DNA from: Thermonema rossianum DSM 10300
GTDB lineage: Bacteria; Bacteroidota; Bacteroidia; Cytophagales; Thermonemataceae
Reading direction: 5' to 3'
Assembly: GCF_000426825.1 (NCBI RefSeq)
Contig: NZ_AUGC01000009.1
Span: 62,001-126,000, forward strand
Length of the DNA: 64,000 nt
Shown: piece after piece, positions 8,636-15,282 of the stretch
How the letters are laid out: each line of letters starts with the position of its first letter
Position numbering within the stretch: position 1 is the first letter of the stretch
The notes under the pieces: generated by a model
What the model was told of the DNA's origin: nothing
Databases searched by the model: none
What the model saw: only the letters and a program-made list of their open reading frames with translations
Position numbers and translations under genes: made by a program

Positions 8636-9613
8636 TCAGGAAGCGTTGATGATTTCAAGGATTAAATCATCGACCGAAATATTTTCTGCTTGTGCTTCGA
8701 AGTTTAAAACAAAACGATGCCGCAATACAGGCAATGCCACAAACAGCAAATCTTCCTGCGCCAGCGAATAGCGCCCCGAAAGGAAGGCATGGGCTTTGGC
8801 TACACGCAACCAGGCTTGCCCGGCACGGGTACCTGCCCCCCATTGCACCCATCGTTTGATGCTCTTGTGGGTGGTACTTTGTGGGCGGCTCTCCAGCATG
8901 CAGCGATGAATCCACGCAATGAGGCTTTCATCCACGGCAATTTTTTGTACACAAGCCTGCGCCGCCAAAAAATCGTCGCGATTCATGACAGGCGCCGGCT
9001 CGTAAAAACTTTCGGTAGCCGTTTGGCGCAACACTTCCAGTTCGGCCTCTTGAGCCGGATATTCCATTTTTAAATACAGCAGAAAACGGTCAAGTTGCGC
9101 CTCGGGTAAAGGGTAGGTACCGGATTGCTCTATGGGGTTCTGAGTAGCCAGCAAGAAAAAAGGCGAAGGCAAAGGGTAGGTATTGCCGGCATAGGTAATG
9201 GCCCGCTCTTGCATGGCTTCCAACAGAGCCGCTTGTGTTTTTGGGGGTGTCCGGTTGATTTCGTCTGCCAGCAACAGGTTCGTGAACACAGGCCCCGGAC
9301 GAAACTCCACTTCCAGATTACCGCCGGGCAGTTGCCGTATCACCTCGGTACCTATGATGTCGGAAGGCATCAGGTCGGGCGTAAACTGAATGCGGTTGAA
9401 GTCCATCTGCATGGCCTGCGCCAGTGTTTTGACCAGCAGTGTCTTGGCTAAGCCGGGCACGCCTTCCAGAAGAGCATGTCCGCCTGCCAGCATGGCCGAA
9501 AGCACCAATTTGATGGTATCGTGTTGCCCAAGCACCACCTGATCGACTTCTGCCAGCAGCTTCCACAAACGCTCCTGCAGATACTTGACTTGTTGTTCAG
9601 TGGTCACGCTCAT
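8636..9613 (-). CDS. MoxR-family AAA+ ATPase
   Basis: AAA+ ATPase of the MoxR family; these act as chaperone-like machines, usually with VWA-domain partners, in maturation of envelope or enzyme complexes. 325 residues, normal length. Walker A GVPGLAKT at residues 51-58, Walker B LLADEIN with the DE pair at 117-118, sensor-1 LATQNP and the PEAQLDRFLL motif are all visible. Unlike the common MoxR-DUF58-VWA (Bat) operons, no DUF58 or VWA gene follows. A VWA protein at 42134-43252 and a BatA-domain protein at 54788-56821 lie elsewhere in the window and are possible partners, but this is only inference. Confidence 0.95.
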   Translation of the reverse strand: MSVTTEQQVKYLQERLWKLLAEVDQVVLGQHDTIKLVLSAMLAGGHALLEGVPGLAKTLLVKTLAQAMQMDFNRIQFTPDLMPSDIIGTEVIRQLPGGNLEVEFRPGPVFTNLLLADEINRTPPKTQAALLEAMQERAITYAGNTYPLPSPFFLLATQNPIEQSGTYPLPEAQLDRFLLYLKMEYPAQEAELEVLRQTATESFYEPAPVMNRDDFLAAQACVQKIAVDESLIAWIHRCMLESRPQSTTHKSIKRWVQWGAGTRAGQAWLRVAKAHAFLSGRYSLAQEDLLFVALPVLRHRFVLNFEAQAENISVDDLILEIINAS

Positions 9614-9663
9614 GATATTTTTTCAATTAAACGCCGGGCAGGGGCAATTGTTGTGCGGTGTCC

Positions 9664-11658
9664 TTAACCGGCAGAAGGTATGTTGATGCCATAGTTGACC
9701 AAGACAAGCGTAAAACACACTTTGGTGCCTCGTTCCGGGGTGCTTTCCACCGAAAAAGTGCCGCCGCTCTTGGTGATAAAGTCATGACACATCAGCAGGT
9801 TGAGCACTGCTGTGTTGAATTTGCTTTTCTCTTGATAGCTGATTTTTTGCACTCCTTCTTGATAAGCCTTTATTTCGGCTTCACTAAAGCCAATGCCGTT
9901 GTCTTCTACACACACCTTCAAGCTGCTGTCTTCCGGGCATTCGATGCTTATGTGCACGCTGCCCTGCGGGGCAGTCATACGGATGGCATTGGACAAAAGA
10001 TTGCGAATCACAAAAGACAAGGCATCTTTTTCTATCTTGGCGGCTACTATTTTATTGCAAGCATTCCGGAAATTAACACTTAGCTGCTTGGCTTCAATAA
10101 ACGGGCGCGATTGGTCCACGCTCTCACGTATATGACGCACCACATCGAAACAAACGGAACTGTCGAGCGCAGCCGTTGACTGCTGCTGCATCCATTGCAG
10201 AATGTCTTGCAAATGCAGAAGGGCTTTTTCAAGCTCACCCAGCATACGCTGCCCAAGGTCTTTCTTTTCTTCGGCACTCAACACATTTTCGTGTGAAGTG
10301 AGTAGAATCAAAAAACCTTTCAGTGTGCTGAGTGGCGCCCGTATTTCCTGCGAAATAACCGCATACATTTTTTCTTTTACACGCAGCTCATGTTCAATCA
10401 ATTTTCGTTGCAAAGCATTTTCTTCTGCCTTTTGTGATACTTCCAACGATATTTGATGCAGTTTTTTGTTCCGGTCTTCAAGGGCTTTGTTTGATGCTTC
10501 CAACTGCCGGTTGATGTCTGCCAGTGTCATGTTGGCCTCTTCCAACTCTTCCTGCTTGGCTTCCAAATTATTGAGTGCATCCTGCAATGAAAAAAGCAAG
10601 CGGTTGAAGCTCTCCGTCAATTCGCCCAATTCGTCTTCCGTGAATTTCTGCACGGCATAAAACGAACGGATGCGTTCATATTGCCCCTGTGCAATGTAAG
10701 AAGTGTAGCGTCGCATGACTTTCGTCAGGTGCTGCAGCGGAATGGTCATCAGGTAAGACAAGAAATAACCAAAGGTAAGACTCAGAATAAGCATAATCAG
10801 AAACGAAACAATCATGATATTCTGAAACTGCCCTTGTAAAAGACTGTCCTGCTTGGCTACTTCTTCCAAGGCTCTTTCAAGGGCATTGGTAGCGCGGTCG
10901 GCACTGCGGCGCAGCTCAAAACGCAGGCCTTCGCCTTCCTGCTCCTCGCCTATCTGACGATAATAGACAAAATACCAGCGCAGATGGCTCTCGTATTCTG
11001 TCAACAGCTGTTCAAACTCCCGGAAAGTTGAAGCGGGCATAAGGCGGCGCGCCCGCTGCCGTAAGCGTGCAATTGCTTTTTTCAAGTTTTCCCGGTTCGA
11101 AGGGTCAAGGCTCTTGATTGACTTTTGTTCCCACAGGCGTACCTCCATCCATTCAGCCCGTGGCAAGTAGGGAATATGATCTATGGCTTTTGCCAAACGC
11201 ATGACCTCGCCATATTCACCATAATTTCCATAGCCCATCCGCTGCACAATCACCACTGTCTGATTCAGCTTGTCATGATAAATGCTCAGTTGCTCCCTTG
11301 CGTCTTTCAGGTGCATGCGTATGTCGCTGTTCTGCACCACAGGCATCTGCATGAGGGTGTCTAAGTTCTTTTGAATATGGGCATACAACTGCTTGTGCCT
11401 ATCTATCAGTTCGCTGCGCCCATAGCGGTAGAAGTAAGGCTTCTTCAGGTCTGTCAGGAAAAAACTTTGCTCTATTTTCACCAGCTGCAGGGTCTGTATC
11501 ATCACGCCGGTCATTTGCTGCGACAGCCGGCTGATGCTGCGGCGTTTGTTGTAAAACGAAAGACTAATAGCCATCAAGCCGCCCAAGAGGGCAATAAAGA
11601 AGGCATAGCTTGCAAAGAGTTTGTACCGTACAGACCAACGCTTGATTACAGACCACAT
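9664..11658 (-). CDS. Degenerate membrane-bound sensor histidine kinase (HAMP, no phospho-acceptor His)
   Basis: 664 residues with sensor-kinase architecture: membrane helix near 13-35, a mainly helical periplasmic domain about 36-280, second helix about 281-305, HAMP-like region 306-370, long coiled coil 360-430, HisKA-like helix pair 430-500 and HATPase_c 540-650. The H box reads ISQEIRAPL: residue 437, where the phospho-acceptor His should be, is Gln (CAG, positions 10348-10350). The N box (RNLLSNAIR, 552-560) and G1 box (DNGIGF, 586-591) are intact, but the usual GxGLGL of the G2 box is replaced by FNTAVLNLL at 614-622. The protein should fold like a kinase and may bind ATP, but autophosphorylation by the standard route is not expected. 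No response-regulator gene is adjacent. Confidence 0.85.
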   Translation of the reverse strand: MWSVIKRWSVRYKLFASYAFFIALLGGLMAISLSFYNKRRSISRLSQQMTGVMIQTLQLVKIEQSFFLTDLKKPYFYRYGRSELIDRHKQLYAHIQKNLDTLMQMPVVQNSDIRMHLKDAREQLSIYHDKLNQTVVIVQRMGYGNYGEYGEVMRLAKAIDHIPYLPRAEWMEVRLWEQKSIKSLDPSNRENLKKAIARLRQRARRLMPASTFREFEQLLTEYESHLRWYFVYYRQIGEEQEGEGLRFELRRSADRATNALERALEEVAKQDSLLQGQFQNIMIVSFLIMLILSLTFGYFLSYLMTIPLQHLTKVMRRYTSYIAQGQYERIRSFYAVQKFTEDELGELTESFNRLLFSLQDALNNLEAKQEELEEANMTLADINRQLEASNKALEDRNKKLHQISLEVSQKAEENALQRKLIEHELRVKEKMYAVISQEIRAPLSTLKGFLILLTSHENVLSAEEKKDLGQRMLGELEKALLHLQDILQWMQQQSTAALDSSVCFDVVRHIRESVDQSRPFIEAKQLSVNFRNACNKIVAAKIEKDALSFVIRNLLSNAIRMTAPQGSVHISIECPEDSSLKVCVEDNGIGFSEAEIKAYQEGVQKISYQEKSKFNTAVLNLLMCHDFITKSGGTFSVESTPERGTKVCFTLVLVNYGINIPSAG

Positions 11659-11668
11659 GCTTGTAAAG

Positions 11669-11676
11669 CAAAAATA
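11669..11676 (-). promoter_or_regulatory. Candidate -7 element for the kinase-like gene
   Basis: TATTTTTG on the minus strand fits the Bacteroidota -7 consensus TAnnTTTG, 11 bases before the ATG at 11658. No good -33 TTTG is seen at the expected distance, so this is weak. Confidence 0.35.
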
Positions 11677-11740
11677 ATTTCATGGGTAAGATAAAAATTT
11701 ATGGTTTGTGAAAAAAACTGTGAGAGAGTCAAAAAAAAAG

Positions 11741-11748
11741 TATATTTG
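11741..11748 (+). promoter_or_regulatory. Candidate -7 element for the TonB receptor gene
   Basis: TATATTTG matches TAnnTTTG, 27 bases before the chosen ATG at 11776. It overlaps the left arm of the palindrome at 11745-11763, so a repressor bound there would block RNA polymerase. The -33 region is poor. Confidence 0.5.
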
Positions 11749-11763
11749 CAACATTGTTGCAAA
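11745..11763 (+). promoter_or_regulatory. Perfect 9+1+9 palindrome, candidate Fur/Zur-family operator
   Basis: TTTGCAACATTGTTGCAAA is an exact inverted repeat with a single central base, in the format of Fur/Zur-family operators. It sits on the -7 element and just before the start of a TonB-dependent receptor followed by a lipoprotein. Position and symmetry support a repressor site. That the repressor is Zur (zinc) rather than another Fur-family protein is inference from the gene pair; no regulator gene is in the window. Confidence 0.6.
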
Positions 11764-11775
11764 AACAAAATCGAA

Positions 11776-14151
11776 ATGCCTCACTACAAAACATTTCTGT
11801 GGGTTTGCTTAGGGCTGTTGCTACAGGCTTGGGATGGCAAGGCACAAGACTGTGCACTTCGCTTGGACGGACGCATAGTTGATACGGACGGCAAGCCACT
11901 GCCTGCCGCTACGGTTTACATAGTGAATAGCAAGCAGGGCACCGTCTCCTCTTCCGATGGTTACTATAGGTTGGAAGGTTTGTGCCCGGGACGCTACGTC
12001 ATTGAAATCTCCTTCACAGGATATAGCACCCTCTACGACACTTTGCAGCTGCATAGCTCGATGCACCGGAACTACCGCCTGTCGGAAGCCCTCCTGAATG
12101 CAGGCGAGGTGGTCATTGAAAGCAAGCCTTTCCTTTATGAGAGTGTTATTGTTGAAGCACTCGATGACGAAGCACAGTGGCGGCGGGCAAACAAGCCGCT
12201 CAGCCGCATGCTTGAAGAGGTAGAAGGCATAAGCAGCTTGCGCACCGGCGCCGAGATAGCACAACCCATGTTGCATGGATTTTGGGGTAACCGGCTGGCG
12301 TTGAACGTAGAAGGCAGCCCACTGGGCAGCCAGCGCTGGGGTGCCGAGCATGCCCCTGAAGTGGACCCGCTGGCTTATGACCAAATAGAGGTTATCAAAG
12401 GGGCGCAAGCCGTGCTGCTGGGAAGCGATGCCATAGGGGGCGCTGTGGTTCTTAAGCAGCAAGCCCTAAGCGACGTGGACAGCCTGCGGAGCCGGTGGGT
12501 ATTGAACGCACACAGCAATGGGCGGGGCTTTTTGTTGCATCAAAAAACCAGCGGACGCCTCTCCAAACAATTGGCTTTCAGACTACACAGCACAGCAGCG
12601 CGCAGTGGCGACCGTCAGGCAGCCCACTATATGCTTTCCAACACCGGCCATCGTCGCCTAAGTGCCGGTATGGGCTTGGGCTACCGCTTCCACCGGTGGG
12701 ATGCCGACCTGCAATATGACTACTTCGGCGCAGAGAACGGTATCCTGCGGGCAGCTCATACGGGTAATCTCGATGACCTTGCCCGCGCCATGGAACGCCA
12801 AGAACCATGGTACATTGCCCCTTTCAGTTATGAAATTGAGCACCCCAAACAAGAGGTCGCGCATCATAGTTGGCGCCTGCAATCGCACCGCCATGGCCCG
12901 AAGGCCGATTGGCGTTTTGTGTATAGCTTGCAGATAAATACCCGCAAGGAGTATGACGTGCGGCGGGGCGGCCGCAGCGAGCTGCCTGCTGTATGGATGC
13001 GCCTCCTGCAACAGCACCTGCGTGTGCAAAGCGATTTTCATTTTTTGAAACAGATAGAGAGCAGTTTGGCGGCAGAATGGCTTTGGCAGGACAATCTGAA
13101 TCGCACCGAAGAAACCAATACCCGTCCTATACTGCCGGATTATCGCCGTCAACAGGTGAGTCTTGCCTGGGCAAACACCATTCCTCTTGCCCACATGGAA
13201 TGGAACTGGGGCGTTCGCTTTGACTATAACAGTGCGCAGGTGTGGATTTTCGACTACCAAAACCGGCTATTCACCCCTGATTTTAAGAAGCTGAATGTTC
13301 AGTTCAATGCAGGTTTTCACACGCACCTGTCAGATGCATGGTCATGGACTTCTTCCTGGGCATGGAACCGCCGTCTGCCGGCCATCAATGAGCTTTACAG
13401 CCAAGGGCTGCACCACGGCAGTGGGTGGATAGAAGAAGGACTGCTGGTAGATACCAACGGATATTATGCGCCCGGGACCGAACTACGATTTGAGGAAACT
13501 TACCGCTGGGTAAACCAGTGGGTATTTCACAAGGGGGCACACCGGCTAAGCCTCACGCCTCACCTGAGTTATATTCAAAATTATGTAAATCTGGAAGCTG
13601 CCGACTTGCGTCTTACCATCCGGGGCGCCTTTCCTGTGTTTCGCTATCATCAAACCGACGTGCTGTGGGCGGGCAGCGATTGGTTGTGGGAATGGCAGAT
13701 AGCTCCCTTTCTGAAAACCACACATAAAGGCAGTGTACTGTGGGCTCACGATATAACAAGGAATGCCGGTTTGAACCGGGTACCGCCTCCGGCATATCGC
13801 GGGGCTTTCGTTTGGCAAAAAGAAAGATGGGGAAAATTCTCGGGCATACAAGTAGAACTGGCTGCCGAATATGCGGGTATTGCCTGGTCATTGCCGGCGG
13901 TGGTCGCTCCTGCCGAGGTAGGCAGCCGCCCGGAACAGCAAGCACAAGCCTGGGATTTCATGCCGCCCCCCAATGATTACTGGTTGTTTCATTGGCGTAT
14001 AGAAGGCAGCTATACGTCGCACTGGCGTTTTGCCTTGGAAGTAGAGAACCTGTTCAACCGGGCTTACCGCTCTTATTTGAACCGTTGGCGGTACTTTGCC
14101 GATGACTTGGGACGCAATGTTTCCGTTTCTGTTCAATATATGTTTCACTAA
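11776..14151 (+). CDS. TonB-dependent receptor, ZnuD-like, with CarboxypepD_reg-like N-domain
   Basis: Outer-membrane active transporter energised by TonB. 791 residues from ATG at 11776; the longer frame to 11701 would include the promoter and operator, and ATG 11776 gives a clean signal peptide (MPHYKTFLWVCLGLLLQAW). Residues ~25-110 are a CarboxypepD_reg-like beta-sandwich (GRIVDTDGKPLPAATVYI). The plug follows (LHGFWGNRLALNVEGSPLGSQRWGAEHAPEVDP and IEVIKGAQAVLLGSDAIGG). The barrel ends in VSVQYMFH with a terminal aromatic region. The barrel segment HPKQEVAHHSWRLQSHRH is His-rich and resembles that of ZnuD-type zinc receptors. It is followed after 14 bases by a lipoprotein gene. Zinc as substrate is inferred, not shown. 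Confidence 0.9.
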   Translation: MPHYKTFLWVCLGLLLQAWDGKAQDCALRLDGRIVDTDGKPLPAATVYIVNSKQGTVSSSDGYYRLEGLCPGRYVIEISFTGYSTLYDTLQLHSSMHRNYRLSEALLNAGEVVIESKPFLYESVIVEALDDEAQWRRANKPLSRMLEEVEGISSLRTGAEIAQPMLHGFWGNRLALNVEGSPLGSQRWGAEHAPEVDPLAYDQIEVIKGAQAVLLGSDAIGGAVVLKQQALSDVDSLRSRWVLNAHSNGRGFLLHQKTSGRLSKQLAFRLHSTAARSGDRQAAHYMLSNTGHRRLSAGMGLGYRFHRWDADLQYDYFGAENGILRAAHTGNLDDLARAMERQEPWYIAPFSYEIEHPKQEVAHHSWRLQSHRHGPKADWRFVYSLQINTRKEYDVRRGGRSELPAVWMRLLQQHLRVQSDFHFLKQIESSLAAEWLWQDNLNRTEETNTRPILPDYRRQQVSLAWANTIPLAHMEWNWGVRFDYNSAQVWIFDYQNRLFTPDFKKLNVQFNAGFHTHLSDAWSWTSSWAWNRRLPAINELYSQGLHHGSGWIEEGLLVDTNGYYAPGTELRFEETYRWVNQWVFHKGAHRLSLTPHLSYIQNYVNLEAADLRLTIRGAFPVFRYHQTDVLWAGSDWLWEWQIAPFLKTTHKGSVLWAHDITRNAGLNRVPPPAYRGAFVWQKERWGKFSGIQVELAAEYAGIAWSLPAVVAPAEVGSRPEQQAQAWDFMPPPNDYWLFHWRIEGSYTSHWRFALEVENLFNRAYRSYLNRWRYFADDLGRNVSVSVQYMFH

Positions 14152-14165
14152 AACTCAAAAAAAGT

Positions 14166-14741
14166 ATGAGAAAGCAAATTTTCTTTTTCGCAGTCCTGCT
14201 GGCAGGCGTATTTATGAGCGCTTGCAAAAAAGACGACCCCAAGCCGGTCAATGAGTCGGAGCTCATTACTACTGTGGAGGTTACCTTCACCAATCAAAAC
14301 GATGCCTCGGATATGGTTACGCTTCGCTGGTACGATGAAGATGGCGACGGACCGGCCGCGCCGGTTATCACCAATGGTAATTTGAAAGCCGGTGCTACCT
14401 ATCAAGCACAGGTCAAATTGCTGGACGAGAGCAAGTCACCTGCCGAAGACATCACCGAAGAGGTGCAGGAAGAAGCAGAAGTTCATCAGTTGTATTACGG
14501 CTTTGGCAGCGGGTTATTTGCTTCGTTTGAGTACATGGACCAAGATGCCAACGGTAAACCGTTGGGTTTGCAGTTCCGGGTAACTACGGGGGCGTCGCCG
14601 GTTGCTGCCCAAAACTTCACGGTAGTGCTCATCCATGAAGGTGACAAGTCGAAAAACAATTCTTCTACCCCATGGACCTATGATGCGCTCATAGGGGGCG
14701 AAACGGACGTACAGGCTACATTTAGCGTAGGAATTCAGTAA
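14166..14741 (+). CDS. Small lipoprotein paired with the TonB receptor
   Basis: 191-residue lipoprotein: signal sequence with lipobox FMSAC, lipidated Cys at residue 20, followed by an acidic-charged start (KKDDPK). Beta-rich mature domain. The middle carries an acidic/His motif (ITEEVQEEAEVHQLYYGF) and GDGPAAPVITNGNL, features I associate with a Bacteroidota lipoprotein family commonly next to TonB receptors of the metal-uptake type. 14 bases after the receptor stop, so co-transcribed and under the same operator. A role as a surface or periplasmic metal-binding accessory is inference; it is not a classical ABC substrate-binding protein by size. Confidence 0.8.
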   Translation: MRKQIFFFAVLLAGVFMSACKKDDPKPVNESELITTVEVTFTNQNDASDMVTLRWYDEDGDGPAAPVITNGNLKAGATYQAQVKLLDESKSPAEDITEEVQEEAEVHQLYYGFGSGLFASFEYMDQDANGKPLGLQFRVTTGASPVAAQNFTVVLIHEGDKSKNNSSTPWTYDALIGGETDVQATFSVGIQ

Positions 14742-14777
14742 GAGTACTACTGTCTGTATCATTCTGAGAGACCAAAG

Positions 14778-14796
14778 GCAACCCTGATAGGGTTGC
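14778..14796 (+). terminator. Rho-independent terminator after the receptor-lipoprotein pair
   Basis: Perfect stem GCAACCC / GGGTTGC with a 5-base loop (TGATA), followed by TTAGTTGTTTT, 36 bases after the lipoprotein stop. Confidence 0.7.
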
Positions 14797-14823
14797 TTAG
14801 TTGTTTTCAATGTATTACCTTTG
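14793..14823 (+). promoter_or_regulatory. Candidate promoter for the polysaccharide plus arm
   Basis: TTG at 14793-14795, 20 bases, then TACCTTTG at 14816-14823, matching the Bacteroidota TTTG-N19/20-TAnnTTTG layout apart from the first base of the -33. If used, it would give a leader of about 450 bases before the flippase ATG at 15283. It partly overlaps the terminator stem. Confidence 0.45.
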
Positions 14824-15282
14824 CATTCTAAATAAGAAATGAGCATCATTAATCATTCTATTCTTAGAACCTCGTATCAAGAAGATGCAGCTGCAAGAAA
14901 TGATTAATCAGTCTAAATTGCGCAGCTGGTTTAAAAGCTGTTACTAAAAAGCTAAACCACACGCTTCCCAAAATTAAGTGTTATCGTAGTTAAAATATAA
15001 GAGACGCCTAACAAACAGCTTGAGGTAGTTTTAAAAGAAAAGAACAAACTCTCATTTGACACCACAAAGCATAAATACGCAAAAGGGCACATTCTTTAAA
15101 CACAAGTCGAAGGCATAAAAATTGATGAGACAACGACATACTGTAAAACCAAATGAACTTATAACCTAAAAGAAAAGTATTTGTATTGGAAACCGATTTA
15201 GAGTAAAAACACATCTGTAATCAATTATTTACGACCAAAGTCATAATAGCTACATGCCCCCTTTTTCAAAAAACACACGCAT

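Follow-up and report, generated by a model that had tools for sequence, protein, structure and literature searches.

The gene at positions 9664-11658 of the window (the whole stretch of DNA analysed, 64,000 nucleotides) encodes a receptor with a histidine kinase-like core that has neither the phospho-acceptor His nor the glycines of the ATP lid. We propose that it is probably a maintained pseudo-histidine kinase, which would work as DivL does, by conformation and docking. The evidence comes from the motifs lost and kept, from the constraint on the altered core between two species of the genus, and from the spread of the substitution among relatives. In the following, G000 is the window genome and G001 the separately assembled sister species, both of genus g1.

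A receptor without acceptor His and with a remodelled ATP lid

The minus-strand ORF has an intact frame of 664 aa plus the stop codon, and its orthologue in the sister species is 86% identical. The protein is predicted to be a two-pass membrane receptor composed of a helical sensor, a HAMP region, an extended coiled coil and a DHp/CA core. The predicted extracytoplasmic sensor (about residues 39-278; 10825-11544, minus strand) was delimited on the alignment of relatives and lies between TM1 (about residues 13-35) and TM2 (about residues 279-305), all limits being set by inspection. The HAMP-like region that follows (about residues 306-360; 10579-10743, minus strand) has about 6 more residues than in the aligned relatives, and its Pfam HAMP match is weak (E 0.026) compared with 7/10 aligned relatives, which reach E<=0.01. 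Between HAMP and DHp sits a coiled-coil insertion of 28 residues, or four heptads (about residues 398-425; 10384-10467, minus strand), placed by alignment with an uncertain exact gap position; it is genus-specific among the 10 aligned sequences and nearly invariant between G000 and G001 (computed on residues 396-423). The HisKA/DHp-like domain (residues 428-490; 10189-10377, minus strand) scored 25.4 bits against Pfam HisKA in the protein scan (cut-off 26.9) and 31 bits, above the cut-off, in the genome scan with the same model, and the HATPase_c-like (CA) domain (residues 545-652; 9703-10026, minus strand) matched Pfam HATPase_c at E 7e-17 with 62.3 bits, above its cut-off in the protein scan. 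No PAS domain was matched at E<=1 in the window protein, whose architecture is that of a sensor plus a HAMP-like region. An AlphaFold2 model of residues 395-664, built from the single sequence, had a mean pLDDT of 60.5 and was set aside as poor.

The H box of the window protein is V-I-S-Q-E-I-R-A-P-L, and residue 437, at the phospho-acceptor position, is therefore Gln (codon CAG, 10348-10350, read from 10350 to 10348 on the minus strand). Two other boxes are kept in the alignment: the N box region NLLSNA (residues 549-562; 9973-10014, minus strand), with N553 and N557, and the G1 box DNGIGF (residues 586-591; 9886-9903, minus strand), with D586. The stretch from residue 592 to residue 621 (9796-9885, minus strand), which comprises F box, ATP lid and G2 box, has been remodelled. 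In the 10-sequence alignment T616-A-V-L-N-L621 (9796-9813) aligns without gaps with the GTGFGL, GSGFGL or GSGLGL of relatives, showing that all three G2 glycines are gone, and the F box of the relatives is also absent. Among the features of an active HisKA kinase, the acceptor His and the G2 and F boxes are thus missing, while the N and G1 boxes are present. The sequence-only reading had claimed Gln437 for His and a ruined G2 box with N and G1 boxes kept, and this was verified both on the sequence and on the 10-sequence alignment. It had mentioned neither the strand of the gene, nor the loss of the F box, nor the 28-residue insertion.

The sister species has the same Gln (codon CAA), the same TAVLNL and the same coil insertion; an assembly error is unlikely, since the Gln is encoded by a different codon and TAVLNL is retained. 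Residues 592-620 are 97% identical between G000 and G001 but share 7-14% identity with the relatives G002, G003 and G005; among these three, identity over the same residues is 45-59%. DHp helix 2 reaches just 19-33% identity to these three relatives.

Docking, pairing or residual activity

We suggest that a signal from outside would move the HAMP region and the coil, and hence the DHp helices, and that the output would be a docking surface that is either shown or hidden. Self-phosphorylation of the DHp/CA core on the usual residue would be impossible, and its handling of ATP is, on sequence grounds, very probably poor or none. As the likeliest partner we tentatively consider a response regulator, which may well bind at the DHp face as in DivL. 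The docking positions of DivL, counted from the acceptor (+3, +11, +12 and +15; PMC4211667), correspond to R440, G448, F449 and L452 in the window protein, with the Gly and the Phe invariant in 10/10 aligned sequences, and it is because these four residues resemble those of DivL that a response regulator is the leading candidate. The argument is weakened by a His-bearing kinase encoded in the window genome (L219/L220), which likewise has Gly at +11 and Phe at +12.

The position of the gene points to no partner, since no receiver domain is adjacent. None was found at E<=1 in 828 ORFs, covering positions 1-26000 of the window and ten other neighbourhoods (that of G003 being a contig of 8.7 kb with short flanks), with a receiver profile built from response regulators of this analysis that recovered 28/30 loci in the positive control. 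Similarly, neither the 18 PF00072 matches in G000 nor the 59 in G002 included one on the contig that carries the gene (C8, the contig of the window, in G000 and C15 in G002).

As a second and less likely possibility, the protein could form a heterodimer with an active His-bearing HisKA kinase of the genome in place of binding a response regulator, as has been proposed for the kinase pairs ChrS/HrrS and RetS/GacS. The window genome does contain His-bearing kinases with a similar DHp, for example L219 (687 aa) and the propeller kinase L227, and passages of PMC9491836 report that native ChrS and HrrS heterodimerise and that a ChrS pseudokinase raises output through HrrS. In those same passages, however, the truncated ChrS pseudokinase itself gave no significant heterodimer (PMC9491836), and the low identity of DHp helix 2 to relatives is such that the interface of the window protein may have drifted to self-only pairing.

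Even less probable is that enzymatic activity persists, either as autophosphorylation on another residue, as phosphatase activity or as an ATP-dependent switch operated through the N and G1 boxes. Considering that both boxes are kept, D586 included, some residual nucleotide binding is possible, and the Gln genes of genera g3 and g4 retain all G2 glycines and may still bind ATP. In the window protein, on the contrary, the F box and the three G2 glycines have gone and the lid has little identity left to that of relatives. The position acceptor+4, which is Thr or Asn in HisKA phosphatases, is Ala in the window protein; this says little, as His-bearing relatives vary likewise (Gly, Ser or Ala). 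Moreover, DivL, whose boxes are intact but for the Tyr, had neither kinase nor phosphatase activity according to the passages of PMC4211667 that deal with it. A pseudokinase that signals by conformation and docking remains our preferred reading.

The altered core is constrained between species

We estimated dN/dS between G000 and G001 by the Nei-Gojobori method, with pS near saturation (0.66), so that the values are rough. Whole-gene values were 0.050 (receptor), 0.059 (SecDF), 0.071 (an acyl-CoA dehydrogenase), 0.072 (TonB receptor) and 0.203 (lipoprotein), in a comparison where dS was saturated in 3/11 genes. Within the receptor the values were 0.025 for the DHp, 0.034 for the CA domain (residues 541-655) and 0.017 for the remodelled lid; change was fastest in the sensor and in the DHp-CA linker, with dN of 0.132 and 0.131, respectively. 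The most altered segment of the protein, from F box to G2, therefore counts as one of those best conserved from one species to the other. The core of the pseudokinase has a pN/pS of 0.102 (0.065-0.144), within the range of 0.035-0.206 obtained for the cores of 13 His-bearing kinases compared between G000 and G001.

Signs of a pseudogene are absent: the frame is intact in G000 and in G001, and the core is constrained. It is consequently most improbable that we are looking at a decaying gene still open by chance, to which the lost catalytic residues, the fast g1 stem and the one family genome without the gene (both below) would be congenial, but which is opposed by the intact frames, by a core that evolves like those of His-bearing kinases, by the conservation of its most altered segment and by the behaviour of a receptor that does break up. 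The earlier proposal of a maintained pseudokinase and not a decaying gene is in this respect borne out, by the frames, by the pN/pS of the core and by the occurrence of the Gln in three genera.

The receptor that breaks up is a second orphan receptor without His, L013:796-2349:+ (G000:C11:12297-13826), whose H box LLTKNLRVPL has Lys at the acceptor position. Its counterpart in G001 (L230) reads LLTQNLRVPL, with Gln, and its sequence is split over three fragments, each in a different frame. In four g4 homologues (L231-L234) the residue is His. The L013/L230 core has a pN/pS of 0.337 (0.261-0.423), well above the value of the window gene. As Pfam found no kinase domain in L013, we call it kinase-like on the basis of the DHp alignment and of the g4 homologues. 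This decaying His-less receptor provides an internal contrast within the genus.

A separate observation concerns about 120 bases at 11543-11662 of the window (the first 38 codons of the receptor gene and a few bases upstream), where the two species differ by a single base. Synonymous sites are conserved here, with a pS of 0.04, whereas the gene as a whole has 0.66. The segment is single-copy in the genome at the search used; it showed no stable RNA fold (z 0.30), and no Rfam match was found in 9000-15000.

Gln is found in three genera, the loss of the lid in one

Within family f1, the genes of G003 (genus g3) and of G004, G005 and G007 (genus g4) combine Gln and an intact G2 box, and G002 (genus g2) carries a His-bearing orthologue with GTGFGL. 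No orthologue was found in G006, a family genome that is 97% complete, suggesting that the gene is non-essential across the family. Gln at the acceptor position therefore occurs in 3 genera, and the loss of G2 and F box in genus g1 only (2/2 species). The sequence-only reading had proposed that conservation of both changes over distance would mean that selection keeps a pseudokinase; such conservation holds for the Gln, which two of the three genera combine with intact G2 glycines, and not for the loss of G2 and F box, which is confined to this genus. It had also taken a close homologue with His and intact G2 as a sign of a simply mutated copy: such a homologue exists in G002, a genome of the same family.

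His is present in the closest homologues from outside the family, which belong to another family of the same order (G037, G052, G078 and G103). Their high profile scores arise partly by construction, because three of the four had been used to build the profile, and their orthology was dropped, as the tree gives no supported join to the f1 clade.

The sensor-plus-HAMP profile detected the receptor type in 94/390 genomes of the order. We sampled the sensor family from 30 profile-search loci (among the matches listed), 60 fetched regions and the family loci, with some overlap, and obtained 109 sensor-positive ORFs. A kinase-core score of 40 bits was passed by 43 of them, and a strongly degenerate kinase among the 66 ORFs below that score could escape the count. 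In the acceptor column, 36 of the 43 kinase-type ORFs have His, 6 have Gln and 1 has Ser, and all 6 Gln genes belong to the f1 clade of seven, the seventh being the His-bearing gene of G002. Among these 43, the G2 glycines are missing from the two g1 genes alone (L122 ends inside the box). At E<=1e-110 the window gene was the sole match in 295 class genomes, considering the best 4 candidates per genome; this set evidently excludes other known family members.

The same sensor occurs in other contexts. The ORF with Ser (L131:1335-3125:-, in G016) reads SSSSSKLRAPL at the H box, with an intact GSGLGL and an N box HIIDNA. A paralogue of 718-741 aa (L058-L065) with the same sensor is present in all 8 family genomes, and the two copies scanned (L059 and L065) have GAF and PAS domains at the C-terminus, where no output domain was recognised. 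In addition, the terminal motif QRDD occurs in 10/30 sensor-profile loci and also in L052, a match to the SpoIIE phosphatase family.

Order of the losses

A receptor tree was built from 28 of the 43 kinase-type ORFs with the H-box and G2 columns excluded. The seven f1 genes formed one clade (100/100) that includes the His-bearing gene of G002, whose divergent TonB receptor and lipoprotein neighbours are shared with the window gene. On this basis the window protein qualifies, as far as sequence can tell, as a histidine kinase fold derived from a His-bearing kinase and now without the acceptor His.

The receptor tree requires one change between His and Gln, with a Gln clade supported at just 72/83. 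The species tree (RpoB, RpoC and SecDF) places g1, g2 and g3 together (97/97) against g4, and the species data reject a family clade without G002 (p-AU 0.006, with G003 RpoB represented by a 234-aa piece only). On the receptor alignment itself, the grouping of g1, g2 and g3 is not rejected (p 0.247), and that of g1 and g2 alone is marginally rejected (p 0.038). Separate trees of sensor and kinase part, with the trait columns kept, put g1 in different places, each with weak support (50/16 next to g4; 39/0 within the Gln genes). SecDF alone places g4 outside the family, and it was therefore used here solely as a rate control. A single origin of the Gln was not accepted as settled, given the weak Gln clade and the conflicting species tree. 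The Gln may have arisen at least 2 times, or once with a reversion in G002, or may have been transferred between genomes.

The g1 stem of the receptor has 2.3 changes per column, against 0.44 for g3 and 0.48 for g2, about five times its relatives, while for SecDF the corresponding values are 0.50 against 0.44 and 0.37. As the long g1 stem gave way to constraint, we suggest that the gene went through a burst of change before its function settled; such a burst with strict conservation after it agrees with a change of function and not with decay. A fuller scenario, which we put forward as doubtful, is that the acceptor His changed to Gln more than once (or was lost and regained) and that the lid of g1 was then rebuilt as a strictly kept protein-binding element. 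If true, this would leave a natural series made of an active kinase, a His-less but ATP-competent form and a lid-less docking receptor.

Genomic neighbourhood

A divergent TonB receptor gene and a small lipoprotein gene adjoin the receptor gene in G000, in G001 and in the His-bearing G002, where the TonB receptor appears as two separate ORF pieces. These shared neighbours support the orthology of the G002 gene. The gene at 14166-14741, which comes after that of the TonB receptor, encodes a small lipoprotein-like protein. This protein has a counterpart in G002 and changes fast (dN/dS 0.20), and no Pfam match was found for it at E<=0.01.

Between the receptor gene and the divergent TonB receptor gene, at 11745-11763, lies a palindrome, TTTGCAACAATGTTGCAAA, which the sister species keeps with a changed centre. 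It overlaps TATATTTGC, which resembles a Bacteroidota -7 element, and it is possibly an operator of the TonB receptor.

At 8636-11658 the receptor and MoxR AAA ATPase genes form a tandem pair with 50 bases between them, and a small ORF and SecDF come next. The order receptor, MoxR, small ORF and SecDF is also present in G001 and was absent from nine other neighbourhoods examined. The receptor and MoxR genes possibly form an operon of this genus.

Comparison with known systems

To our knowledge few bacterial pseudo-histidine kinases have been characterised, with DivL as the usual example. PMC9491836 likewise gives DivL as its example, and a large histidine kinase census (PMC4558063) reports having eliminated sequences without the conserved His. 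Such proteins may be little catalogued partly because censuses eliminate kinases without His. No such protein is described for this group among the matches listed in the open-licence literature searched. The f1 clade unites, in seven orthologues, a His-bearing form, Gln forms with an intact ATP site and lid-less Gln forms, allowing the order of the losses, and the survival of nucleotide binding past the loss of the acceptor residue, to be tested directly.

Among known systems, the subfamily II ethylene receptors of plants are histidine kinase-like receptors in which the His and further boxes are lost and which pass their signal on to a different protein; they differ in being eukaryotic and in having a sensor unrelated to that of the window protein. 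RetS of Pseudomonas is described as a kinase-like receptor that modulates another kinase, GacS, through interaction. RetS retains its His and is a hybrid protein. The ChrS pseudokinase of laboratory-evolved Corynebacterium glutamicum is likewise a catalytically dead histidine kinase with a function, but according to the relevant passages of PMC9491836 it arose by a laboratory frameshift in the CA domain with the His kept, whereas the window protein is natural and has a full-length CA domain.

The closest parallel in working would be DivL of Caulobacter (Tyr550, PDB 4q20), and a profile from the family alignment found 4q20 among 46 matching PDB sequences (E 1.3e-16; 28 score better). As stated in the sections of PMC4211667 on the protein, DivL has Tyr in place of His with H, N, G1, F and G2 motifs otherwise kept; it acted neither as a kinase nor as a phosphatase, its binding of an ATP analogue was weak, and DivK~P binds to it at the docking face for response regulators. 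The window protein was ruled out as a DivL orthologue, having no PAS match at E<=1 and a different sensor. DivL combines Tyr, kept F and G2 boxes and PAS sensor domains, while the window protein combines Gln, lost F and G2 boxes and a sensor with HAMP; like DivL, it has a histidine kinase-like core without the acceptor His, and residues of similar character at the docking positions.
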